A model generated the notes under the pieces. The model searched no databases. It had not been told where the DNA came from and saw only the letters and a program-made list of their open reading frames with translations. From positions 1-35,220 of the forward strand of contig JASJBV010000003.1 in assembly GCA_030066335.1 (NCBI GenBank): a DNA stretch of 35,220 bases, given 5' to 3'. Positions 10,480-29,507 of this stretch are shown piece after piece. Numbering within the stretch: position 1 is the first letter of the stretch; every line of letters begins with the position of its first letter. The DNA comes from Gammaproteobacteria bacterium. Its GTDB lineage: Bacteria; Pseudomonadota; Gammaproteobacteria; GCA-001735895. A program made the position numbers and the translations under genes.

Positions 10480-10547
10480 GGCATCATCCGGCAGTAATCC
10501 AGCGCTTTCCCCTCAAGTTATCTAGACATTACATGGACACCATTTTG

Positions 10548-10580: not shown

Positions 10581-10701
10581 TGGTCATAACCTATTGCTAT
10601 CTATATCTATAGCATCATAGAGAGAATTAATTATTTTGCCCGTTGAAAACACTTACAATGGCAATACTTAACTTATGTCTAAGACAAACAATGGAACATA
10701 C

Positions 10702-11496
10702 ATGAAAACTCTACTCGCAACCCTGATCTCTACCGCCCTCGTGGTACCCACTGCCGCCCTTGCCGGCCATTGCTCTTCCAAGGCCTATGGCAAGCACCAC
10801 GGCTATTCAAAATCCGGTGCCCATCATCCACATGCCTATGGTGCTCATTATGACTACATGAAGAGAAAGCATCATGCCAAGATGAAGCATCACAAAATGA
10901 TGAAGAAGCATCATCCCAAGTACTACCAGAAGTATCCAACGGGTGGCTACAAGTCCGCGTCACCCCATTCCCAAGGAGGCGATATGTACTACCTTCACTT
11001 ACCCAAGCAAGGCGAAACTGATAATCTGACGTCCATCCCTGCTCCACAGGAGATTGCCCAGGCTCCGGCCGCCGAGACCGAAAATGCCGTTTTGGCTAAT
11101 ATCGTCAACACCGCAGCCGAGGCTGGTCAGTTCAACACCCTGATCGAAGCGGTCAAGGCAGCAGGTCTCGAGGAGACCCTGACCGGCCCTGGTCCTTTCA
11201 CGGTATTTGCACCGACCGACGAGGCCTTTTCCCGTTTGCCGGAGAGTATCCTCAAGGCATTGACCGAAGACAGCCAGGCCCTGGCTGACCTGCTGACTGC
11301 TCACGTTGTGCCGGGCCGTGTGACCGCCGCTGATGCGATGGGCCTGAACAGCGCCAAGAGTGTCCAGGGCTCGGAGCTGGCCATCGATTCATCAGACGGT
11401 GTATCGATCAACGGGGCCAAAGTTATTTCGACCGACATCGAAGCCAGCAATGGCATCATCCACGTCATCGATAGCGTCATCTTCCCGCAATCATAA
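10702..11496 (+). CDS. Secreted fasciclin-domain protein with His/Lys-rich N-terminal region
   Basis: From the ATG at 10702 this is a 264-aa protein with a signal peptide (MKTLLATLIS...AALA, about 21 residues), a basic His/Lys/Tyr-rich stretch (about 22-100) and one fasciclin (FAS1) domain (about 128-264). The domain shows VNTAAEAGQFNTLIEAVKAAGL, the GPFTVFAPTDEAFS H1 motif and the GIIHVIDSVIFP ending. FAS1 domains usually mediate adhesion or protein contacts outside the cytoplasm. The first 60 mature residues carry 13 His in clusters such as HHAKMKHHK, which is unusual and suggests metal or polyanion binding (inference). The track starts nine codons earlier at 10675, before a polar stretch; I prefer the start that puts the signal peptide first. 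It is followed by a strong terminator. Confidence 0.9.
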   Translation: MKTLLATLISTALVVPTAALAGHCSSKAYGKHHGYSKSGAHHPHAYGAHYDYMKRKHHAKMKHHKMMKKHHPKYYQKYPTGGYKSASPHSQGGDMYYLHLPKQGETDNLTSIPAPQEIAQAPAAETENAVLANIVNTAAEAGQFNTLIEAVKAAGLEETLTGPGPFTVFAPTDEAFSRLPESILKALTEDSQALADLLTAHVVPGRVTAADAMGLNSAKSVQGSELAIDSSDGVSINGAKVISTDIEASNGIIHVIDSVIFPQS

Positions 11497-11569: not shown

Positions 11570-12250
11570 ATGTTTCGTCAACCAATCTTTAAAACAGGGA
11601 GAATTATTGGTATTACCCTGGCCACATTGACCCTAAGCCTGCCCGGCCACGCCTATGATTATGGCAGTAGCTACGGCGGTTATGACAATCGCAGCGGTGG
11701 CGGCATGGGTATGGGTTCAGGCTCTGGCTCAGGCAGCGGTATGGGCATGGGTTCAGGTTCGCGCTCCGGTTATTATGACCGTCGTGGTTATGGTTCGGGT
11801 TACGATTACCAGCGCCCGCAACGACCACCGATGCGACCCTATGGCTACCAACGTCCACCACGCGAGCAGATGCGCCCTTATGGTTATCAGCGCCCACCGC
11901 GTGAACCGATGCGCCCTTATGGTGGCTATCGTCAGGCACCCATGACGCCACCGGCCGCGGCTACCCCGGCACCATCTGCGCCGGCAGAAGCGGCAGCAGG
12001 TGAAGTGACGCTGAATATTCAGGGTATGGCGTTCCAGCCGGCAAGCATGACGGTCAAGGCCGGTTCCACCGTCACCTGGGTCAATAACGATAGTGCCCCG
12101 CACACCGTGACCAGTACCGATGGCGGCCCACTGGCATCAGGTACCCTGAATCGAGGCAGCAGCTACAGCGTAACTCTCGATCAGCCCGGCACCTACAACT
12201 ACGTATGTAAGTTTCACCCGCGCATGCGCGCGAGCATCGTCGTCCAGTAA
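11570..12250 (+). CDS. Secreted cupredoxin (plastocyanin-like) with Gly/Ser- and Arg/Pro-rich repeats
   Basis: This 226-aa secreted protein has three parts: a signal peptide (about 1-28, ending GHA), a low-complexity region of Gly/Met/Ser followed by Tyr/Arg/Pro repeats (about 29-125), an Ala/Pro linker, and a cupredoxin domain (about 144-226). The type-1 copper ligands all appear present: His178 (APHTVT) and Cys213, His216 and Met219 (VCKFHPRM). It is therefore expected to bind copper and carry single electrons in the periplasm or at the cell surface. The start at ATG 11570 has a good AGGAG site 7 nt upstream. Its own terminator follows. The repeat region is not typical of electron-carrier cupredoxins and may anchor the protein to the cell surface or another polymer (inference). 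Confidence 0.92.
   Translation: MFRQPIFKTGRIIGITLATLTLSLPGHAYDYGSSYGGYDNRSGGGMGMGSGSGSGSGMGMGSGSRSGYYDRRGYGSGYDYQRPQRPPMRPYGYQRPPREQMRPYGYQRPPREPMRPYGGYRQAPMTPPAAATPAPSAPAEAAAGEVTLNIQGMAFQPASMTVKAGSTVTWVNNDSAPHTVTSTDGGPLASGTLNRGSSYSVTLDQPGTYNYVCKFHPRMRASIVVQ
11831..11944 (+). repeat. 39-nt in-frame tandem repeat (MRPYGYQRPPREx)
   Basis: Units start at 11831, 11870 and 11909 (the third shortened and diverged). Each encodes MRPYGYQRPPRE plus Q or P. Being a multiple of three, the repeat keeps the frame and could expand or contract by slippage. It lies inside the cupredoxin gene and is not a CRISPR array. Confidence 0.85.
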
Positions 12251-18898: not shown

Positions 18899-20011
18899 AT
18901 GCCTGAGCATCACGACACCGGATTCGATACCCGCTACCAGCGGATCCTGGACCAGATTGACAGGGTCAAACCGGTCAGCTACGGCAAGACCCGTAATTTT
19001 GCCGATGGCGCGGTCACCCGCCTATCGCCGTACATCTCACGCGGAGTGATCTCGACCCGGATGGTCCTCGATAGCATCCTGCAACAGGACCTGCCTTACT
19101 ACGCGAGCGAGAAGCTGATCCAGGAACTGGCCTGGCGCGATTACTGGCAACAGGTTTGGATCGCCAGGGGCGACGACATCGATGAGGATTTAAAACAGCC
19201 GCAAGCGGATGTCGCCCATCACCAGATGCCGCTGGCGCTGGATCAGGCAACCACCGGTATCGACGCGATCGATGCGGCAATCGAGGAGCTCTACCAGACC
19301 GGTTATATGCATAACCACATGCGGATGTATGTCGCCTCCGTCGCCTGCAATATCGCCAGAAGTCACTGGCGGATGCCGGCGCGATGGATGTATTTCCATC
19401 TGCTGGACGGCGACTGGGCAAGCAATGCACTGAGCTGGCAATGGGTGGCGGGCAGTAACGCCAACAAAAAATACTTTGCCAACCAGGGCAACATCAACAA
19501 GTATTTTTACTCCGAGCAGAAAGGCTCTTTCCTCGATCGCGACTATCCCGAACTGGTATCGATGTCGATCCCAGCAGTCCTCCGCGACAAGCTAGAGCAA
19601 TCGCTGAGCTGCGAGTTACCGGTGACTAAACCACCCGTACTCTCTCCGCAGTTACCCACGCTAATCTACAACTACTACAACCTGGATCCGGCCTGGCGCC
19701 GGGATGAGCCGGCCAATCGCATCCTGTTGCTGGAACCCTCAGTCTTCAACAGGTTTCCGATTGCGGCGAAGAATATCGATTTCATGCTGAAACTGGCCGA
19801 CAACATCCCGGGTATCCAGCTGTTCTGTGGCGAGTTCGCTGAATTACAGGGCCTGCTTCAAGCCGGGACTGTGTACTACAAGGAACATCCACTTAATCAG
19901 CATTATCGAGGCCACGAGGAACCACGTGACTGGATGTTCCAGGTCGAGGGTTACTACCCGTCATTCTTTGCGTTCTGGAAACGCTGCAAAAAGGAGATCA
20001 AGTCATGGTAG
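18899..20011 (+). CDS. Photolyase/cryptochrome-family FAD-binding protein lacking the N-terminal antenna domain
   Basis: This 370-aa protein begins directly with a photolyase FAD-binding domain (about residues 30-215). It retains canonical flavin contacts: [11 protein letters not shown], the [11 protein letters not shown] helix, and [16 protein letters not shown], in which Asn177, Trp180 and Trp182 line up by eye with E. coli PhrB N378, W382 and W384. The usual N-terminal alpha/beta antenna domain is absent. Instead an extra C-terminal module of about 100 residues ([18 protein letters not shown] onward, ending [13 protein letters not shown]) follows a linker. It looks alpha/beta in pattern and may be a displaced Rossmann-like domain (inference). 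No ribosome binding site is obvious at the ATG. Its end overlaps the next gene by 7 nt. Whether it repairs DNA or senses light is unknown. Confidence 0.88.
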
Positions 20012-21480
20012 ATGAAGCGATCAATATCGTCTGGCTGAAACGTGATCTGCGGACCCAGGACCATGCGCCACTGGATGCCGCCGAGCAGGCCGGCCTGCCC
20101 TACCTGATCGTGTACCTGTTCGAGCCGGAGCTTATGCGACATGCGGATATGTCCGAGCGTCACCGCCAGTTCATCTTTCATTCGATCCGGGATATGAACC
20201 ACAGATTTGCGGATTACGGCCGGCGGGTGGACATCTTTCACGCCGATGCTGCCGAGGTTTTCCAGTACCTGATCGATCGCCTGGCGATCCACCGTGTATT
20301 CTCCCATCGTGAGACCGGGGTCCGCCTGACCTGGGAGCGGGACAAGCGGATCAAAAAAATATTGGCGGAAAATGCGATCGATTGGATCGAATTCAAACGT
20401 GACGGTATCGAACGTGGCATCGGTGACCGCGATGGCTGGGATGCCGCCTGGTTCAACACCATGCGCCAACCGCTGACCGAGAACCATTTCAGCACTAACA
20501 GCCTGGCCGAGCTGGAGCACCCTTATCCGCTGCCAGCCGCATTGACCGCCAGCCTCGACAGCTACCCCACGCAATTTCAGCCGCCGGGTGAAACCCATGC
20601 CTGGCAATACCTGACCTCGTTCACGGACGGGCGCGGCAGCAGCTATCATCTTGATATCTCCAAGCCGGAGCAAAGCCGTCGATCCTGTGGACGTCTGTCG
20701 CCCTATCTGGCCTGGGGCAATCTGAGTATCCGCCAGGCCTATCAGCACATTAAATTCCATCCGGATTATGGCAACAACAAACGGGCCTTTAGCGGAATCC
20801 TCACCCGCCTTAAATGGCACTGCCACTTTATCCAGAAATTTGAAGTGGAATGTGAATACGAAACGCATTGCATCAACCGCGGGTATGAGTCACTTGAACA
20901 CGAGCATAACCCGCAACATATCCAGGCCTGGCAGACGGGGCATACCGGTTTGCCGCTGGTGGATGCATGCATGCGCTGTCTGCAGCACACCGGCTGGATC
21001 AACTTTCGGATGCGGGCGATGCTGGTTTCCTTTTTCTGTCATCACCTCGACCAGGACTGGCGCAGCGGGGTTTATCATCTGGCCAACCTGTTCCTCGATT
21101 ACGAGCCCGGCATCCACTATCCGCAGTTCCAGATGCAGGCCGGGACCACCGGCATCAATACCGTGCGCATGTATAATCCAGTCAAACAATCCAGGGACCA
21201 TGATCCGGAAGGCCAGTTCATCAGGCAATGGGTGCCAGAGTTACAAGCGGTACCGTTGGAATTCATTCATGAACCCTGGTTGATGAGCGAATTCGACCAG
21301 ACTTGCTGCGGAGTGATCCTGGGGAAAGACTATCCTCTACCCATTATCGATCATGTAGAGAACGCCAAACTTGCGCGCAAGAAGATCTGGGGACATCGAA
21401 GAAATGAGCTGGTCAAGACGGAACGCGAGCGGATTCTGCACACCCACACGCGCAATAGCCCACGCAAGGCACAGGCATAA
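20005..21480 (+). CDS. Photolyase/cryptochrome-family protein with altered flavin pocket
   Basis: This is a 491-aa full-length family member: an N-terminal photolyase alpha/beta domain ([20 protein letters not shown], about 5-135) and a C-terminal FAD-binding domain (about 230-440) with [35 protein letters not shown] and FIRQWVPEL. The segment that should align with E. coli PhrB NNGGWQW reads HYPQFQM: by eye no Trp stands at the W382 or W384 position and no Asn at N378. The electron-transfer route and flavin chemistry may therefore differ from classical photolyases. I believe similar sequences occur in marine bacteria. It starts inside the previous gene with an AAGGAG site, so the two are translationally coupled. 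Confidence 0.9.
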
Positions 21481-21704: not shown

Positions 21705-22709
21705 CTACAGGGTCTGCCCATGAACAATAATACGACCCGAGCAAAAGCGGGCGATCCTCAGCGCCCTGGCCATCGTCTCGAAATGCGCCACCACCGCCTG
21801 GGTCGATTGCATCGCTGCCTGCAGCACCGGACCAGCCTGACCCACCAGGTTCGCGCCCAGCGCCATCGCCTTGGCCGCATCCAGGCCATGCCGGATACCA
21901 CCGGAGGCGATTAACGCCAGCTCGGGAAACTCAGATCTTATTGCCATAATTGCGCGGGGAGTCGAGATACCCCAGTCGGCAAAGATTTCTCCCAGGTCCT
22001 GCAGTTGCGGGTCTCGGGCCCGTTGACCCTCAACCCGACTGAAACTGGTACCGCCGCGGCCGGCAACATCGATCGCCTGGACCCCGGCATCGATCAGCTT
22101 CCGCGCGACGCTGACGGAAATCCCCATCCCCACTTCCTTGGCGATGACCGGCACCGATAACCGCGCTGCAATCTGTTCCAGCCGGGACAGGATATTACCC
22201 CAGTCGGTATCACCGTTTTCCTGCAGCGCCTCCTGCAATGGGTTGAAGTGAATGATCAGGCCGTCGGCCTCGATCATATCGATGGCTTGTTGGATTTCGG
22301 CCAGGCCGAAGTCTTGTTGCAGCTGGGCCGCACCGATGTTGGAAAATAGCGGGACGCCGGGGGCATATTGGCGCAGGCGGCGATTCAGGCCGCTATGGGC
22401 CGGAGATTCAAGTGCTACCCGCTGTGAACCTACCCCCATGGCGATACCCAGCTGTTGTGCCGCCTCGGCCAGATGTAGATTGATGGTCTCGGCCCGACGT
22501 GGGCCACCGGTCATCGAGCTGATTAAAAACGGTAGTTTCAGTTGATGTTGCAGAAATTCGGTGGTGAGCTCTATATCCGCCAGGTTCTGCTCCGGTAAAG
22601 CATTATGTTCGAGCTCGATCGCATCGAATGCGTTGACCGGTTTCACATCCTGTTGCTGGGCCAATACCAGGTCGATGTGATCTATCTTGCGTTGGAGGAT
22701 TTCATTCAT
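21705..22709 (-). CDS. fni: Type 2 (FMN-dependent) isopentenyl-diphosphate delta-isomerase
   Basis: This 334-aa enzyme interconverts IPP and DMAPP with reduced FMN, supplying DMAPP for GGPP synthesis. Family features include RKIDHIDLVL at the start, FLISSMTGGP, AMGVGSQRVALE, VIAKEVGMGIS, VDVAGRGGTSF-like sequence (AIDVAGRGGTSFSRVE) and IASGGIRHGLDAAKAMALGANLVG, all parts of a flavin TIM barrel. It is the last gene of the rhodopsin/retinal operon and its start overlaps the end of blh by 8 nt. Placement of idi within proteorhodopsin clusters is known from marine bacteria and increases isoprenoid flow into retinal. It is type 2 rather than the Nudix type 1. Confidence 0.96.
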   Translation of the reverse strand: MNEILQRKIDHIDLVLAQQQDVKPVNAFDAIELEHNALPEQNLADIELTTEFLQHQLKLPFLISSMTGGPRRAETINLHLAEAAQQLGIAMGVGSQRVALESPAHSGLNRRLRQYAPGVPLFSNIGAAQLQQDFGLAEIQQAIDMIEADGLIIHFNPLQEALQENGDTDWGNILSRLEQIAARLSVPVIAKEVGMGISVSVARKLIDAGVQAIDVAGRGGTSFSRVEGQRARDPQLQDLGEIFADWGISTPRAIMAIRSEFPELALIASGGIRHGLDAAKAMALGANLVGQAGPVLQAAMQSTQAVVAHFETMARALRIARFCSGRIIVHGQTL

Positions 22710-23592
22710 GGCTGAGCTCCCTGGATTGGAGTCGTTGGATCATTTCAATCAGAATCATGTGGGGTACGGTTAATACTATCAGGCCAACGAAGATGATTTG
22801 CAACAGGGTCTGTGACCAGTCCTGCCCTGCCAGCAGTTGGAAGCTGAGCCAACCCAGGATGACGGTCAAGCCGGTCAGGCCGGCAGCCGTGGTCAAAACC
22901 GTCAGCGGTTTTTCCCTGCGTGCAATCGACAGCAGGTGGCGGGGGCTGTGCTGCAGACAGAAATAGACCATAAAAAATACCAGCGGTGGTAACAACATCG
23001 CGGCTAACACGATAAACAGGATCTCGAGGCTGGCATGGATATCCCTGCGTACGAGCTGCAGCACACTGCTGACCAACAAAACCAGGACCAGTGGCCATAG
23101 CTGAGCTGTGATCGTAACCAGCCCGGCGGCATCGTCGGCATTCACCAGGTTGCTGTAGATGGTCTGGACATCGACCGGATGAAACAGGCTGGGCAGTACA
23201 ATCAGGGCGAGCGCCACACCCAGTCGGTTGATCAAACCAAGCTGGTGGCGCCAGTCATTGGCAAAGTGCCAGACTGATAACAACAGGAACAGGCTGAAGG
23301 TTAAACTGCTCGCCCACAACCATAAACCGAGCGTCAGCGCGGCAATCAACAGGTAAACCGCAAGAAACCTGGCTAACTCTACCCCATCGCGCCACAAGCC
23401 ATGCCGATAGGCAACGATCGGATCAAGTGCACCATGCGGTAAGCCCAGCAGGACCACCAGAACAGTCAGTATGACGAGCTGCCATTGCATCGAGAGACTG
23501 ACGCCAGACAGGAACAAACTGATCACCACCAGCGTGGACAGGAAAAACAACCATTGCTGGAGTCGATAGGCCACGCTAGCCCCGGTGGACAT
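22702..23592 (-). CDS. blh: Beta-carotene 15,15'-dioxygenase, Brp/Blh family
   Basis: This 296-aa polytopic inner-membrane enzyme has about seven to eight hydrophobic segments and cleaves beta-carotene centrally with O2 to give two retinals. Likely iron ligands are His53 (GLPHGALDP), His109 (SVWHFANDW), and His215 and His219 (LQHSPRH); His278 (TVPHMILIE) is also conserved in the family. The ATG at 23592 lies inside the crtY end (17-nt overlap), and its stop overlaps fni. It provides the rhodopsin chromophore, so its presence next to crtY and the opsin makes a retinal-producing pathway nearly certain. Confidence 0.96.
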   Translation of the reverse strand: MSTGASVAYRLQQWLFFLSTLVVISLFLSGVSLSMQWQLVILTVLVVLLGLPHGALDPIVAYRHGLWRDGVELARFLAVYLLIAALTLGLWLWASSLTFSLFLLLSVWHFANDWRHQLGLINRLGVALALIVLPSLFHPVDVQTIYSNLVNADDAAGLVTITAQLWPLVLVLLVSSVLQLVRRDIHASLEILFIVLAAMLLPPLVFFMVYFCLQHSPRHLLSIARREKPLTVLTTAAGLTGLTVILGWLSFQLLAGQDWSQTLLQIIFVGLIVLTVPHMILIEMIQRLQSRELSHE

Positions 23593-24766
23593 GGTCCGCT
23601 GGCAGCTTGGGATTACGCAATCTGGCCGGGTTAAGCTGTTTGATAAAAGGCCAGGCCGGCAGCGCCAGAACCACCGCGAGCATATCCTTTAACCTGGGTT
23701 GGTCGGTCAAGAAACGTACCAGAGCGGCTGGTTCGACCTTTTCCGCCAACGCCATGAAGAAGTCGGGGGCCAGTTCCGGATGATGCCGAATGACCCGCAG
23801 GAAAAACTGGTCCATTAAACCGAGCAATGCCGGTTCGGCTGGTTGCGCAATGATGCGATCCTGTTCCAACAGTTGATCCGCACATTGCCGCGACCAGTTC
23901 TGGATTCTGCGAAAGGCATAGCCGGTGGCGGCCCGGATCGCTCCGCCGCCACTACCAGCCCTGATCCAGTTCGGCGGCAGTGTGTCGGCTGCAGGTTCGA
24001 GCCCCATCGGGATCACACCCTGCTCCCGCCGCACGATCTGGTAATCGGCGCCGCGACTGTAACGCTTCAACGCTTGCTCGAGGTCTGCATCGAGCTGGCG
24101 GATGGCAGCACGATCGCGGCAGAAACGGGTACTCTCAATCAGGATATGATTGGATGACATGGGTAAGATGTAGTTGAACTTGAAGCCGAATTCATCGCTT
24201 GCCATATCCTCCATCAGGCCAACCTGATCAGACTTGACCAGGGCCTGCTCGCTGCGTATCTCAACCCCGATGAAGGCCTGTAACAGGGTTGACCTGGCAT
24301 GATCGTCAGTGGTCGGTGGCCGGGTATCTATGACCTTATCGGCGATAATATCTCCATTCAGGGTTTGCAGCCTAAAACTGCCATCCAGCGGTTCGATGGT
24401 CTTGACCTGGTCTCCCTTGCGTAATTCAACCCGGTCATTAGGGCCGATCAGGTTCAACGCATGCTGATAGAAATTGACCGCGGGTATGCAGTGATAAGAC
24501 CAGCCCTCGCCCGGTTCATGCAAATGTTGCTGTCCCTGTGACGAGAAGCTCCATTGCCGCCACTGCCGCTTGACCAGCGCTCGCTCTGACCCGATATTCT
24601 GGGACCAGAAACACCAGGTGCGATCGTTTGCATAACCCGTTCTGGGCTCGATGATAACGGTCCTGGGCAGGCTGGTCTGATCAGCACTGCGCTTGATCAG
24701 GTCACGGGCCAGGGATAGACCCGCGCAACCGCCACCGATGATCGCCAGGTCATAATGCTGGCTCAT
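23576..24766 (-). CDS. crtY: Lycopene beta-cyclase
   Basis: This 396-aa flavoprotein of the CrtY type forms the two beta-rings of beta-carotene from lycopene. The N-terminal dinucleotide-binding fold is DLAIIGGGCAGLSLARDL, followed by RTWCFW, and further cyclase-like motifs are YILPMSSNHILIESTRF and GAIRAATGYAFRRIQ. Length and motifs fit proteobacterial CrtY. It starts at ATG 24766, whose A is the last base of the crtB stop (TGATG overlap), and runs into blh. It is probably membrane-associated. No hydroxylase (crtZ) or ketolase (crtW) follows, so beta-carotene appears to be the end product before cleavage. Confidence 0.96.
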   Translation of the reverse strand: MSQHYDLAIIGGGCAGLSLARDLIKRSADQTSLPRTVIIEPRTGYANDRTWCFWSQNIGSERALVKRQWRQWSFSSQGQQHLHEPGEGWSYHCIPAVNFYQHALNLIGPNDRVELRKGDQVKTIEPLDGSFRLQTLNGDIIADKVIDTRPPTTDDHARSTLLQAFIGVEIRSEQALVKSDQVGLMEDMASDEFGFKFNYILPMSSNHILIESTRFCRDRAAIRQLDADLEQALKRYSRGADYQIVRREQGVIPMGLEPAADTLPPNWIRAGSGGGAIRAATGYAFRRIQNWSRQCADQLLEQDRIIAQPAEPALLGLMDQFFLRVIRHHPELAPDFFMALAEKVEPAALVRFLTDQPRLKDMLAVVLALPAWPFIKQLNPARLRNPKLPADHVHRG

Positions 24767-25731
24767 CAGCGACTGGGTTCCGTCAGGTAGCTGCCCGGTA
24801 AACCACGAAGCGGACGGTGTAATCTTTGATCATGCCTGGCTAGTTTAACGTGGAATCGCGGACGACTGCAGAATTCGAATATGGTTTTCGCGGCGATAAT
24901 AAATTTTGCCCGCCGGCTGACCTGGGCGCGACCAAGCCAGGTGGCATAGCCTTTGCCGGCCAATTGATGACCGATCGCACGGTAAACCCTGGCCGCGACC
25001 AGAATCGCAATCCGAGCTCGCCACGGCAGGTAGGCCAGACCCTGCTCACCGGACTTATAATAACGTTCGGCCTCGTCGAGTAAAGCCTTGACCCCAGTGG
25101 TCAGATCTTCACGGTGCCAGACGTCGGCATTCGCAATCAGTTTCGGCGACAGGTTGCCGACGATGTTCTCCGGCAAATAACGCCGTTGATTTCTCGCATC
25201 CTCGGCGACATCCCGGGCGATGTTGGTCAATTGCATCGCAATACCAAGATCTATCGCATGCTTGTGTGCCCGTGGGTCTCTGACCCCGAGTACATCGCAC
25301 ATCAACAGGCCAACGGTACCCGCCACCCGGTAGCAGTAGCGCTTCAACTGGGCTGAATCCTTGATCCTGACCGTATCAAGATCTGACAACAAACCCTGGA
25401 TCAATTGGGTCACCGGTGCCATGTTGATCCGGTGTTCCTGCGCCAGGGCGAGAAAATCATTGACCACCGGATCGAAGCTGACAGCGGACTGTAATTCATT
25501 ATAGATCTGTAATAACCGGCGAAATGAGTCCGCACCATCCGCGGAGGAATCCGCGAGGTCATCCAGGTAGCGACAGAAGCTGTACAGTCGAGCACAGGCC
25601 TGTAGTTGAGAAGCGGCCAACAGACGCCCGGCAAAATGAAAACTTTTTCCATGCGTCTCCAACACCCCTACCGCCCGGTTGAGCGGCAGGGGTTGCAGGG
25701 ATTTTACTTCGAGGGCTATGGGTAAGGTCAT
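24766..25731 (-). CDS. crtB: 15-cis-phytoene synthase
   Basis: This 321-aa enzyme condenses two GGPP to phytoene, the first carotenoid-specific step. The two Asp-rich Mg-diphosphate motifs are visible: YLDDLAD (Asp57, 58, 61) and NIARDVAEDARNQRRYLP. SFHFAGRLL at the start and QLTNIARDV are family hallmarks. The gene overlaps crtI by 4 nt (ATGA) and crtY by 1 nt, showing tight translational coupling. A basic C-terminal tail (RRAKFIIAAKT...HVKLARHDQRL) could aid membrane binding. Nothing is missing relative to bacterial CrtB. Confidence 0.97.
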   Translation of the reverse strand: MTLPIALEVKSLQPLPLNRAVGVLETHGKSFHFAGRLLAASQLQACARLYSFCRYLDDLADSSADGADSFRRLLQIYNELQSAVSFDPVVNDFLALAQEHRINMAPVTQLIQGLLSDLDTVRIKDSAQLKRYCYRVAGTVGLLMCDVLGVRDPRAHKHAIDLGIAMQLTNIARDVAEDARNQRRYLPENIVGNLSPKLIANADVWHREDLTTGVKALLDEAERYYKSGEQGLAYLPWRARIAILVAARVYRAIGHQLAGKGYATWLGRAQVSRRAKFIIAAKTIFEFCSRPRFHVKLARHDQRLHRPLRGLPGSYLTEPSR

Positions 25732-27221
25732 GCGGCTGCCTCCTCGTGAATAGGTTGGTTGGGTAACAGGTTTTCCAGCACCTTGGCCGAAGACAGCACC
25801 CCGGGAATACCCGCTCCGGGATGAGTACCGGCACCGACCAGGTAAAGGTTTTCCGGTCCCTCGGCGCGATTATGAAAACGGAACCAGGCGGACTGGCGGA
25901 ACAATGGAGCCACCGAGAAACCAGCCCCGTGTTCGCTCAGGTAATCCTTGGCAAAATCCTCTGGGGTCATGAAGAATTCGCTGGTTATGTGCTGATCGAG
26001 GTCGGGCAGGATCGTCGCCGCCAGGGCGTCGACAATTCTTTGCTGCAACAGGGGGCCTTCACGTTGCCAGTCGATGTTGGCTTTCAGATTGGGCACCGGG
26101 GCCAGTACATAAAATGAATCACAGCCCTTCGGGGCAAATGACGGATCGGTTGCGGTCGGCCGGTGCAGATACAAAGAGAAATCCTTGGGCAATTCAGTGC
26201 CGTGGAAAATATCACGCAATAACTCCCGGTAACGATGTCCCATCCAGATGGTATGATGCGCTACATCCGGATACTGACGGGTGCTGCCGAAATAGAGCAC
26301 GAATAATCCCATCGAAAACTGCGAATGCTTGTGCTTCAGCCCAACCAGGCCACGCTGGTGACGCCGGTCGAGCATGTGCTGGTAAAGGTAGGCCGGATCG
26401 ACGTTGGAAACCACCGTGTCAGCGGCTATCTGCTCACCACTGTCAAGCTCGATACCCGCAGCCCGACCGTTTTTCACCAGCACCCGCGATACCGTCTGCT
26501 GCAGATTGATATCTATCCCCTGCTCACGCATCAACCGTTCCAGCGCATCGACGATAGCACCGGTGCCGCCCATCGCGAAGTGGATACCCCACTCTCGCTC
26601 GAGATAGTGGATCAGGCCATAGATGCTGGTGGTGTCGAAGGGATTACCACCCACCAACAACGGTTGGATGGAAAAAGCCTGGCGCAGCTGCGGATCTTGC
26701 AGATTACCGCTGACCAGGTCCCACACCGATTGCTGGCAATTCAGCCGCAGCAGGTTCGGTACCTGTTTGATCATGCTCGAGACCGAGTGGAATGGCTGAT
26801 CGGATAACTGGGTGAATCCGACATCGAATATGCGACGCGATTGCTCGAGCAAATTTTGATAGCCGGCCACATCAGCAGGATTGAATTTTCTGATCTCGTT
26901 GAGGGTGTCCTCGACACTGCCGCCATAATCAAAGGTGGCTCCGTCACTGAACCAGAAACGGTACCAGGGTGACAGCGGCACAAAATCGACATAGTCCTCG
27001 CGACGACGGCCGAACAAGGCAAACAACTCATCGAACAGGAACGGGGCAGTAATTACGGTAGGCCCGGCATCATGGCGAAAACCGTCGCGTTCAAATACCT
27101 GTGCCCTGCCGCCGAGACGGGAACAACGATCATAGATAGCTACATCATAACCACGAGCCCGCAGGCGCAAGGCCGCAGCAATCCCGCCAAAACCACCACC
27201 TATAACGACTGCTTCAGGCAT
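25728..27221 (-). CDS. crtI: Phytoene desaturase (lycopene-forming, CrtI type)
   Basis: This 497-aa FAD enzyme carries out the successive desaturations of phytoene to lycopene. It has the N-terminal FAD-binding GGGFGGIAAALRLRARG (about 8-24), the DAGPTVITAPFLFDELF stretch, and the C-terminal GAGTHPGAGIPGVLSSAKV that completes the FAD site. The length is standard. Its start overlaps crtE by 8 nt and its end overlaps crtB by 4 nt. Membrane-peripheral action is expected. It acts between crtB and crtY in this operon; four-step desaturation is inferred from the presence of a bicyclic beta-cyclase downstream. Confidence 0.97.
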   Translation of the reverse strand: MPEAVVIGGGFGGIAAALRLRARGYDVAIYDRCSRLGGRAQVFERDGFRHDAGPTVITAPFLFDELFALFGRRREDYVDFVPLSPWYRFWFSDGATFDYGGSVEDTLNEIRKFNPADVAGYQNLLEQSRRIFDVGFTQLSDQPFHSVSSMIKQVPNLLRLNCQQSVWDLVSGNLQDPQLRQAFSIQPLLVGGNPFDTTSIYGLIHYLEREWGIHFAMGGTGAIVDALERLMREQGIDINLQQTVSRVLVKNGRAAGIELDSGEQIAADTVVSNVDPAYLYQHMLDRRHQRGLVGLKHKHSQFSMGLFVLYFGSTRQYPDVAHHTIWMGHRYRELLRDIFHGTELPKDFSLYLHRPTATDPSFAPKGCDSFYVLAPVPNLKANIDWQREGPLLQQRIVDALAATILPDLDQHITSEFFMTPEDFAKDYLSEHGAGFSVAPLFRQSAWFRFHNRAEGPENLYLVGAGTHPGAGIPGVLSSAKVLENLLPNQPIHEEAAA

Positions 27222-28176
27222 CGATGATCACCTTGAGCTTACCCAGTAATTGCTCGGCAAGCTCATCGAGCAGATAGCCGCATTGATTGGGTAACTTGTT
27301 GGCGAGTGACGTGGCCAGATGCAGGTAGTTGCGCGCCATGTTGGCGGCGACGTCCCGGGCCTGATCTTCACCCACTTCCAGCTCCAGGGCGAGTACGATG
27401 TTGGCGATGGCGCCCTGCTGCCGATCTTCATCTCGATCGGCGATGTCATCGATGATCTGGTAACCGGTACCAAAGGCGCGCGCGGCGTCCCTGGCAAATG
27501 GAACAAAATCCTGGTATCCAGCAGCCACCAACGGCAATTCCAGTCCCAACGCAAACAAAGGGCCGGACTTGGCACGCGCGACCTCCAGGCACAGCTTGGA
27601 GTCAAGCTGATCGATATCATACTGACCAACGTCATAGGCCTGGCCATGCAGGGTTTGCGCGACTGCGCCGTGTAAACGCCGGATCAACTCGGGTATCGCA
27701 TCGACTCTACTGACATCAGCGATGCCGGCAAAGGCTGCGGTGATCAACAGGTCGGTCAAACCCAGCGCGGTGTTGATACCAAAACCGCTCCAAACGGTCG
27801 GCTGACCTCGCCTACTATGGGCGAAGTCCTGTAAATCATCCTGCACCAGCGATGCGTTGTGCAGTAACTCGACACCGACAGCGATTGCCAATGCATCTTC
27901 CCGGCTTAAGCCGAGGGCATAACCGGCAGTTAGAGCGAGTTTACATCGGGTGCGGCCACCACCGGCTGCCAGGTGATAACGTAAGGCTTTGAGTAGAACA
28001 TCATTGTGGGCTGGCTCGGCACAGAGACGATACATCTGTTGTTCGACGAGATCGACATCCTGCAGCCAGGTTTGCAGGGTATGTTGTAATTGATTGCCGA
28101 AATGCTTGGCAGCGGTATCAATATTGACAGGGAGTAAGGGCTGAGTCATAAGGTTAAAGCCGGCCGGTGTCCTCAC
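27214..28176 (-). CDS. crtE: Geranylgeranyl diphosphate synthase
   Basis: This 320-aa trans-prenyltransferase builds GGPP for carotenoids. Its first Asp-rich motif is DDLQD (113-117) followed by RRGQPTVW, and the second is DDIAD (242-246). The usual GKRLRP near the start reads GGGRTRCKL. The start is debatable. GTG 28176 has a strong GAGGAG site 7 nt upstream (28184-28189) and is my choice; ATG 28149, nine codons later, has none. The GTG lies within a perfect 9-bp hairpin (see separate entry). Only 17 nt separate it from the rhodopsin stop codon, so the two are cotranscribed and probably coupled. Confidence 0.95.
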   Translation of the reverse strand: MRTPAGFNLMTQPLLPVNIDTAAKHFGNQLQHTLQTWLQDVDLVEQQMYRLCAEPAHNDVLLKALRYHLAAGGGRTRCKLALTAGYALGLSREDALAIAVGVELLHNASLVQDDLQDFAHSRRGQPTVWSGFGINTALGLTDLLITAAFAGIADVSRVDAIPELIRRLHGAVAQTLHGQAYDVGQYDIDQLDSKLCLEVARAKSGPLFALGLELPLVAAGYQDFVPFARDAARAFGTGYQIIDDIADRDEDRQQGAIANIVLALELEVGEDQARDVAANMARNYLHLATSLANKLPNQCGYLLDELAEQLLGKLKVIIDA

Positions 28177-28193: not shown

Positions 28194-28949
28194 TTAGGCA
28201 GCTTCCTTGGCCGCGTCAGCTTCTGATTTGCGTACCGCGATCATGTAGATCAGTACCCCGAATACCGCCTTGGCGACGATGTCAGCAATGGTGTAGCCGA
28301 CTTGCACCGCGGTTTCGGCAGCGCCTCCGACCAGACCAATCATCGGGAACACGAATACCACCGGGTAAAAGGACCAGGACAGTACGGTCAGCCAGCGAGC
28401 CTTGTTAACCAGGCCGCGGACGCTCTCAGGTTGCGATGCAATAGAGTCGCGCAAGCCGACAAAAAGTTCGTAAACGATCCACAGGAAAGGAATCATTGCC
28501 AGGGTCCACCACAACCAGCGGGTACCGGCTACGTCTGAAATCTCGCCTGGGTAACCCAGAATGACCATGATCGCGGCCAGCAGACCCAGACGCAGTGATT
28601 TGCTGTAGGTCTCGTCCTTGGACAGACGCATAACCAGGATCAATTCGATCAGCAGTAACGGCACGGTCAGCAGCCAGTCGACATAGCGATAGGCGTCGTT
28701 GAAGGCGATCCCGGTCTGGACCAGCTCACCGTTGATGACGTCGTAGCTGGCATCCCAGCTTTCATAAATACGCAGGTAGTGGTAAAGCGCGATGAAGGTT
28801 ACCAGTCCGGTAATGGTCAACGCAGTTTTGTAGTGCTTGGAAACCTGGCCTCGTCCGAGCCAGAAGAAGATGGTGGCCGCAGCCATGGTAGCGATAGATA
28901 ACGAAAAAAAGTTCGCTACCAGGTCATATTGAAAAGCAGTTATGGTCAT
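28194..28949 (-). CDS. Proteorhodopsin, green-absorbing-type light-driven proton pump
   Basis: This 251-aa inner-membrane protein has seven transmembrane helices and binds retinal at Lys227 (DIVAKAVFG). On helix C, Asp91 (RYVDWLLT), Thr95 and Glu102 form the DTE motif of outward H+ pumps, with acceptor Asp and donor Glu. His57 (LYHYLRI) can pair with the Asp. Leu99 occupies the GPR-105 tuning position, predicting green absorption. The sequence resembles the xanthorhodopsin-like branch (GYPGEISD, TRWLWW), but Trp148 replaces the Gly that opens the carotenoid-antenna site. I start at ATG 28949, not 29003: GAGAGGA at 28958-28964 lies 8 nt upstream, and the 18 extra residues are polar and lack a ribosome binding site. 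It is the first gene of the retinal operon. Confidence 0.98.
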   Translation of the reverse strand: MTITAFQYDLVANFFSLSIATMAAATIFFWLGRGQVSKHYKTALTITGLVTFIALYHYLRIYESWDASYDVINGELVQTGIAFNDAYRYVDWLLTVPLLLIELILVMRLSKDETYSKSLRLGLLAAIMVILGYPGEISDVAGTRWLWWTLAMIPFLWIVYELFVGLRDSIASQPESVRGLVNKARWLTVLSWSFYPVVFVFPMIGLVGGAAETAVQVGYTIADIVAKAVFGVLIYMIAVRKSEADAAKEAA

Positions 28950-29045
28950 ATTGTAAATCCTCTCTTCGTTTATGGACAGCTCATGCGAGCCGATCTCCGT
29001 CATTGTTGAAGGTCAGAATGACCAACCCCTCGGCGATCGTTAAAT

Positions 29046-29062
29046 AGACAAAAGCTGTACAA
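29046..29062 (-). promoter_or_regulatory. Operator-like element copy 2 (TTGTACA-TTGTCT, 11-bp step)
   Basis: On the minus strand it reads TTGTACAGCTTTTGTCT, matching copy 1 at 15 of 17 positions but in opposite orientation. Its two TTGT(A/C)C-like half-sites are 11 bp apart. It would lie in the rhodopsin mRNA leader if the candidate promoter is right. Confidence 0.5.
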
Positions 29063-29092
29063 ACTACGATCGAAAAACCCAAAACTACTAAG

Positions 29093-29120
29093 ATATTAAG
29101 ACTTGTACAACTTTTGTCCT
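29093..29120 (-). promoter_or_regulatory. Candidate rhodopsin operon promoter
   Basis: On the minus strand, -35-like AGGACA (29115-29120) and -10-like TAATAT (29093-29098) are separated by 16 nt. The match is moderate, but copy 1 of the operator-like element covers the -35 and spacer, which supports a controlled promoter here. The start would be near 29085. Confidence 0.4.
29103..29119 (+). promoter_or_regulatory. Operator-like element copy 1 (TTGTACA-TTGTCC, 11-bp step)
   Basis: The top strand reads TTGTACAACTTTTGTCC, with two half-sites starting at 29103 and 29114, one helical turn apart. CarH/LitR-type MerR regulators bind direct repeats with such spacing near the -35 region. That is family knowledge; assignment here is inference, since no regulator gene is in view. 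Confidence 0.5.
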
Positions 29121-29507
29121 GAACGAAATATATCAATTAATTAACATAAATCAAGAAGAAAATGACAAATTGTCCAAAATATATCTGGACAATATCTTGA
29201 CATTTGGTGTTTTGGCCGTGGTTTAGCTAGTTTGTCCAGGAACCCAGATCATGCCCAAAGTTACAGCATGGTCACAAATGAAGGTGTTTGGGCGGAAAAG
29301 ATTTGGCAGACGCTGAATCAATTAACGGGTGACCAGGTCAAGATTTCACTGGGCTTCCCTGGCCAGGCATGGCGAGGAGGCAAATGATTTTATCTGCACG
29401 AGATATAGATAAGAAATTATACTCATGACTAGGCTGATATCAGCTTTCTAACTCTAAGTCACAGCGTTAAGATTAAGTTACAGAAACACCTTAGGCGGAG
29501 ATAAAGC

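Follow-up and report, generated by a model that had tools for sequence, protein, structure and literature searches.

Tandem 11-bp repeats upstream of a rhodopsin–retinal operon and a candidate B12-independent LitR/CarH-type regulator

Introduction

CarH regulators recognize operators composed of 11-bp tandem direct repeats with a TnnACA core, located over promoter elements of carotenoid operons, and the Cystobacter protein has been reported to sit as a dimer on two such repeats (PMC9304148). In these proteins, also known as class I LitR (Thermus, Bacillus megaterium, Myxococcus), a MerR-type helix–turn–helix (HTH) is combined with a B12-binding helix bundle and a Rossmann domain with a His motif. 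Relatives that do not depend on B12 have also been described. CarA of Myxococcus, a CarH paralogue, acts on a carotenoid promoter (PMC9304148); its C-terminal half remains CarH-like, and the antirepressor CarS frees it. In the dark, the class II LitR proteins PplR1 and PmlR2 of Pseudomonas hold light-inducible genes repressed (PMC9758184). Class III LitR, known chiefly from Burkholderia, has a C-terminus that does not resemble the B12 domain (PMC9758184) and is described as using another chromophore (PMC6739363). The light switching of rhodopsin genes in heterotrophic bacteria is poorly known, and our searches of the open literature returned no report of a LitR/CarH-type regulator, class III LitR included, controlling a rhodopsin operon.

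The locus described here shares the tandem 11-bp layout with the CarH systems, but its predicted target is a rhodopsin–retinal operon and its half-site is TTGTMHA [M, A or C; H, not G; i.e. TTGT(A/C)(A/C/T)A], in which the TnnACA core is present only in TTGTACA halves. The candidate regulator, a MerR protein designated L004, has the HTH in common with CarH but no recognizable B12-binding bundle or Rossmann domain with its His motif, and its C-terminal half likewise differs from that of CarA. With the class III LitR of Burkholderia multivorans it shares the pairing of a CarH-like HTH and a C-terminus unrelated to B12 domains. Class II LitR sites [T(G/A)TACA-N12-TGTA(C/T)A] have a period of 18, whereas the rhodopsin and L004 sites have one of 11; it is a different MerR protein of the same genome, L003, encoded beside a RudS gene, that resembles class II LitR.

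Results

The rhodopsin–retinal operon

The window, i.e. the whole 35,220-nt stretch of DNA analysed, is one contig (C165) of a draft genome of 3.04 Mb in 230 contigs that is 82 % complete. Its retinal operon lies on the minus strand and is headed by a gene for a 251 aa rhodopsin (28194..28949; PF01036, E-value 6e-42) in which, read by eye, the D-T-E pattern is as in proton-pumping proteorhodopsins. The genes that follow specify a polyprenyl (GGPP-type) synthase (27214..28152; PF00348), the phytoene desaturase CrtI (25728..27221; TIGR02734 above cut-off), the phytoene synthase CrtB (24766..25731; PF00494), a lycopene cyclase (23576..24766; PF05834), the retinal-making beta-carotene 15,15'-dioxygenase Blh (22702..23592; TIGR03753 above cut-off, PF15461) and a type 2 isopentenyl-diphosphate isomerase (21705..22709; TIGR02151 above cut-off). 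Just downstream, on the opposite strand, are two adjoining cryptochrome/photolyase-family genes (18899–21480), one (370 aa) limited to the FAD-binding half and the other (491 aa) full-length; no strong repeat site was found before them.

Direct repeats in the gap upstream of rhodopsin

Within the 558-bp gap upstream of the rhodopsin gene (28950–29507) we identified three direct repeats of TTGTMHA with a period of 11 and at most one mismatch, each predicted operator consisting of two half-sites in tandem, 11 bp apart. Site 1 (TTGTACAGCTTTTGTCTA; 29045..29062, minus strand) is the closest to rhodopsin and a perfect match to TTGTMHANNNTTTGTMYA. Site 2 (TTGTACAACTTTTGTCCT; 29103..29120, plus strand) is in the opposite orientation to site 1 and has one mismatch to the pattern and a weight-matrix score of 14.1, and site 3 (ATGTCAAGATATTGTCCA; 29186..29203, minus strand) has the top score of the window, 19.8. 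A first-pass annotation of this DNA had described the first two as an inverted pair of operators, TTGTACAACTTTTGTCC (29103–29119, plus strand) and TTGTACAGCTTTTGTCT (29062–29046, minus strand), identical at 15 of 17 positions. Its coordinates and letters are correct and two opposed sites do lie ∼40 bp apart, but each of them is itself a tandem direct repeat. The further half-sites that it listed, GACAAATTGTC at 29164–29174, the inverted pair ATTGTCCA...TGGACAAT at 29169–29193 and a copy at 29232–29238, were all found as described, except that one arm of the inverted pair is part of the third direct repeat, which had been overlooked. Read directly, a plus-strand TTGTCCA at 29170..29176 is inverted relative to the distal half of site 3, and another at 29232..29238 (plus strand) is isolated, with no partner at 11 bp.

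A candidate rhodopsin promoter, TTGATT-N16-TATATT (29127..29154, minus strand), is located between sites 2 and 3; it comes from a consensus scan and is weak, as the scan returned two promoters for the region against 1.5 expected. On the rhodopsin strand, the inverted pair at 29193–29169 (minus strand) also scores weakly as a terminator-like hairpin, with 10 pairs of which three are G-C (0.5 expected by chance). Downstream of the plus-strand half-site at 29232, a small open frame of 21 codons (29251–29316) shows no sign of being a gene.

These repeats were compared with chance expectation. Half-sites in the simpler form TTGTMC, as originally proposed, occur seven times on the two strands of the gap against a mean of 0.6, a count that none of 2000 dinucleotide shuffles reached; TTGTMHA is the better form, and its period-11 repeats with at most one mismatch number three against a mean of 0.009, again with no shuffle of 2000 reaching the observed value. 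With a weight matrix whose training sites came exclusively from other genomes, the three repeats ranked first, second and fourth among 70,406 window positions. The word TTGTACA by itself is common (three in the window, 1.75 expected), and matches to the loose pattern TTGTMCNNNNNTTGTMC at one mismatch carry no information alone because many of those in this genome fall within genes. We conclude that the repeats in the gap are real and very probably operators.

Further sites in the genome

Perfect matches to TTGTMHANNNTTTGTMYA number four in the 3.04-Mb genome, one upstream of rhodopsin, two of L004 and one of a HiPIP/DUF2805 gene group; none was found in six rhodopsin-less genomes of the same genus. 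The region upstream of L004 contains TTGTCTAGGTTTTGTATA and TTGTCAAGCTTTTGTATAAT, the latter overlapping a −10-like box, and its arrangement of a TTGTCCA...TTGGACAAT pair followed by TTGACATTTG resembles 29169–29205 of the window. The HiPIP–DUF2805 operons of this species and of a sister species (genome G037) are orthologous, and both have a repeat site. Within the window, the third-best matrix match (GTGTCCATGTAATGTCTA; 10523..10540, minus strand) is a probable further site before a fasciclin gene (10675–11496) and a cupredoxin gene (11570–12250); the sister species has TTGTCCAATAATTGTCCA before its fasciclin gene. In a sister genus only a palindrome-like sequence, TTGTATACAATTTGTATA, recurs, in three genomes (L225, L226 and L227), and is probably another site.

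MerR proteins of the genome and the L004 family

A genome search identified three MerR proteins in the assembly. L002 is short (122 aa). L003 (281 aa) has an MlrA/CarH-like HTH and helical domain, and its gene overlaps a RudS-type (TudS–DUF1722) gene, with TGTACA-type half-sites upstream (L003:883-2674; contig C158 of this genome, G000). The positional match of L003 in the sister species retains a B12 domain and a His motif, both of which are lacking from L003. L004 (317 aa; L004:989-1939, contig C35) has a CarH-like HTH and shares an operon with a DUF4149 gene. By Pfam, no B12 domain is recognizable in L003 or L004. The first-pass annotation had tentatively attributed control to a CarH/LitR-type protein encoded elsewhere, and L004, on another contig and with the same sites upstream, fits that description. 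The B12 dependence that it also proposed found no support here: no MerR protein with a B12 domain is present in the 82 % complete assembly, where the only B12-binding domain found belongs to a radical-SAM-like protein. As the assembly is incomplete, a B12-type CarH could be missing from it.

A profile of the L004 family matched CarH (5c8d) with an E-value of 3.5e-15 across the HTH, which among PDB entries is nearest to CarH and CarA. In hhalign, the alignment of the family with CarH-like proteins was confined to the HTH (99 %), and the C-terminus of L004 could not be aligned with them. Thirty-three members of this widespread family have the CarH-type HTH, a receiver-like alpha/beta domain (modelled) and then a helical region in which (L004 numbering) C255, C257, C278 and H289 are invariant and H260 is nearly so (CECPxHL...FExYSxxC...H), a pattern that suggests binding of a metal, an Fe-S cluster or another cofactor. 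An AlphaFold model of one homologue (L029), built from three sequences, was of middling quality (pLDDT 67), and Foldseek gave TM-scores of 0.22–0.28 to CarH and, by target, 0.71 to the KdpE receiver; given the low CarH scores and the quality of the model, we attach meaning to the HTH and the receiver-like middle domain alone. In Burkholderia and Caballeronia there are full-length homologues with 31–35 % identity and the same Cys/His motif, whose neighbours include photolyase, fasciclin, folE, SDR and ECF sigma genes. Since the family extends to these genera in such surroundings (photolyase, folE and ECF sigma genes), and by comparison with the published description of class III, it is probably class III LitR. 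Gammaproteobacterial members also lie near photolyase-related and HiPIP genes (by eye unless Pfam is cited).

Conservation of sites and linkage to rhodopsin

Comparison with related rhodopsin-bearing genomes, proposed as a check by the first-pass annotation, revealed conserved sites before rhodopsin both in the sister species and in more distant genomes. The sister-species rhodopsin (L028) is 91 % identical, and the site nearest to the gene, TTGTACAAGGTTTGTCTA, is in the same place as site 1; the gap has diverged apart from the sites, with the CAGGACAAA part of site 2 also kept. That genome additionally has perfect or one-mismatch sites before its HiPIP–DUF2805 genes and between its DUF4149 and fasciclin genes. 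In the L029 genome (rhodopsin 78 % identical) a gene of the L004 family is divergent from and adjoins rhodopsin, with the site TTGTCTACGTTTTGTCTA, and L060 has the same layout with the site ATGTCCTAGTTTTGTATAAT. Elsewhere, an L004-family gene directly follows blh (L063), DUF4149, which adjoins L004 in the present genome, is divergent from rhodopsin (L040), and the closest relative of L004 (L164) has TTGTCAAGGTTTTGTATAATACA upstream at nearly the same position as the site before L004. One perfect site, on contig C4 of the L029 genome, was discarded as it lies inside a coding frame.

Upstream of L004-family genes, period-11 repeats with at most one mismatch numbered 13 (in 10 of 21 loci) against 0–4 at other spacings, and upstream of 74 rhodopsin genes there were six against at most two. 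Nine of 50 rhodopsin genomes have a full-length L004-family member; a site precedes rhodopsin in three of these nine and in one of the 41 without the family (Fisher P=0.016, relatedness not corrected), and this co-occurrence carries modest weight. In the other six genomes with the family no site was found before rhodopsin at the stringency used, and by eye none was obvious in four distant rhodopsin promoters (L030, L031, L034 and L035), in two of which (L030 and L034) a sigma-factor-like frame lies upstream of rhodopsin instead.

Discussion

Sites that are conserved and shared with L004, together with the genomic linkage, are what we observed; the following model for regulation of the retinal operon is a proposal. 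We consider it probable, although well short of certain, that the repeats serve as operators for a MerR protein of LitR/CarH type without a B12 domain, most likely L004, which would keep the operon repressed until a light or photo-oxidative signal is received. L004 is the likely switch for the pump because the same 11-base repeats precede its own gene. By analogy with Cystobacter CarH, two subunits, most likely a dimer, would bind the two tandem 11-bp repeats of a site. As the candidate promoter (29154–29127) is between sites 2 and 3, the three sites in their two orientations would flank it when occupied and could block or loop it, turning the rhodopsin–retinal operon off. Through the same sites L004 would control its own gene together with the DUF4149 and CIA30 genes. 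The signal, probably sensed via the conserved CECPxH...C...H C-terminal domain, would release the regulator, leading to joint induction of the retinal operon and the HiPIP/DUF2805, fasciclin/cupredoxin and L004 genes as one light-stress regulon. Dark repression, with release by light or photo-oxidative stress, is our inference from the family to which the regulator belongs, the position of a site on the −10-like box of L004 and the photoprotective genes nearby; alternatively, the regulator may activate rather than repress the rhodopsin operon.

The main observation at odds with L004 as the regulator is that the sister species retains the sites while no L004 was found in its genome (86 % complete), which encodes a B12-type CarH. 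Either L004 is missing from that bin, or CarH-family members with different sensors can serve the same operators. In a rival explanation, the one put forward by the first-pass annotation, the photoreceptor that binds the sites would be a B12-dependent CarH, absent from our incomplete assembly and encoded by the sister species. The sister-species protein combines the motif GEYHEFG with domains of the B12-binding_2 and B12-binding types, a one-mismatch site adjoins its gene, the sites before rhodopsin are kept in that genome, and the 11-bp tandem design with TnnACA is that of CarH operators (PMC9304148). We nevertheless regard this explanation as unlikely: the present assembly has no MerR protein bearing a B12 domain, the perfect site is absent from four rhodopsin-less members of the genus that have a CarH-like protein, the second repeats are mostly TTGTMTA or TTGTCCA rather than TnnACA, and near 80 rhodopsin loci we found L004-type genes and no CarH-type gene.

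Slightly less likely still is regulation by L003, a class II LitR-like protein encoded beside a RudS gene, with the CarH/MlrA-like HTH and helical domain and an operon that has TGTACA-type half-sites; RudS genes are often part of light-responsive operons (PMC11417400). The half-sites upstream of L003, however, are 19 bp apart rather than 11, no strong matrix site is found there, and no such gene was found near rhodopsin in other genomes. We disfavour, as improbable, the reading of the repeats as promoter elements of an alternative (ECF) sigma factor. The −10-box-like TTGTATAAT in several sites and the ECF sigma genes near the Burkholderia and Caballeronia homologues would agree with it, but one motif makes up both halves, a spacing of 11 bp is too close for −35 and −10 elements, and a single gap contains sites in either orientation. 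That a short AT-rich word clustered by chance, common as TTGTACA is on its own, is refuted by the shuffles, the top ranking in an independent matrix and the retention of the repeats in an otherwise diverged sister-species gap.

Returning to control by L004, a broader and more tentative proposal, which we hold at somewhat less than even chances, is that a branch of the CarH/LitR family that does not depend on B12, having a receiver-like middle domain and a helical domain of invariant Cys/His residues that binds a cofactor, switches proteorhodopsin–retinal operons in several proteobacterial lineages, coupling the pump to a photolyase/photo-oxidative stress regulon. These findings draw attention to a sensor domain whose Cys/His pattern is invariant and for which no Pfam model exists, and provide a named candidate regulator, an operator sequence and a small predicted regulon for cultured relatives.
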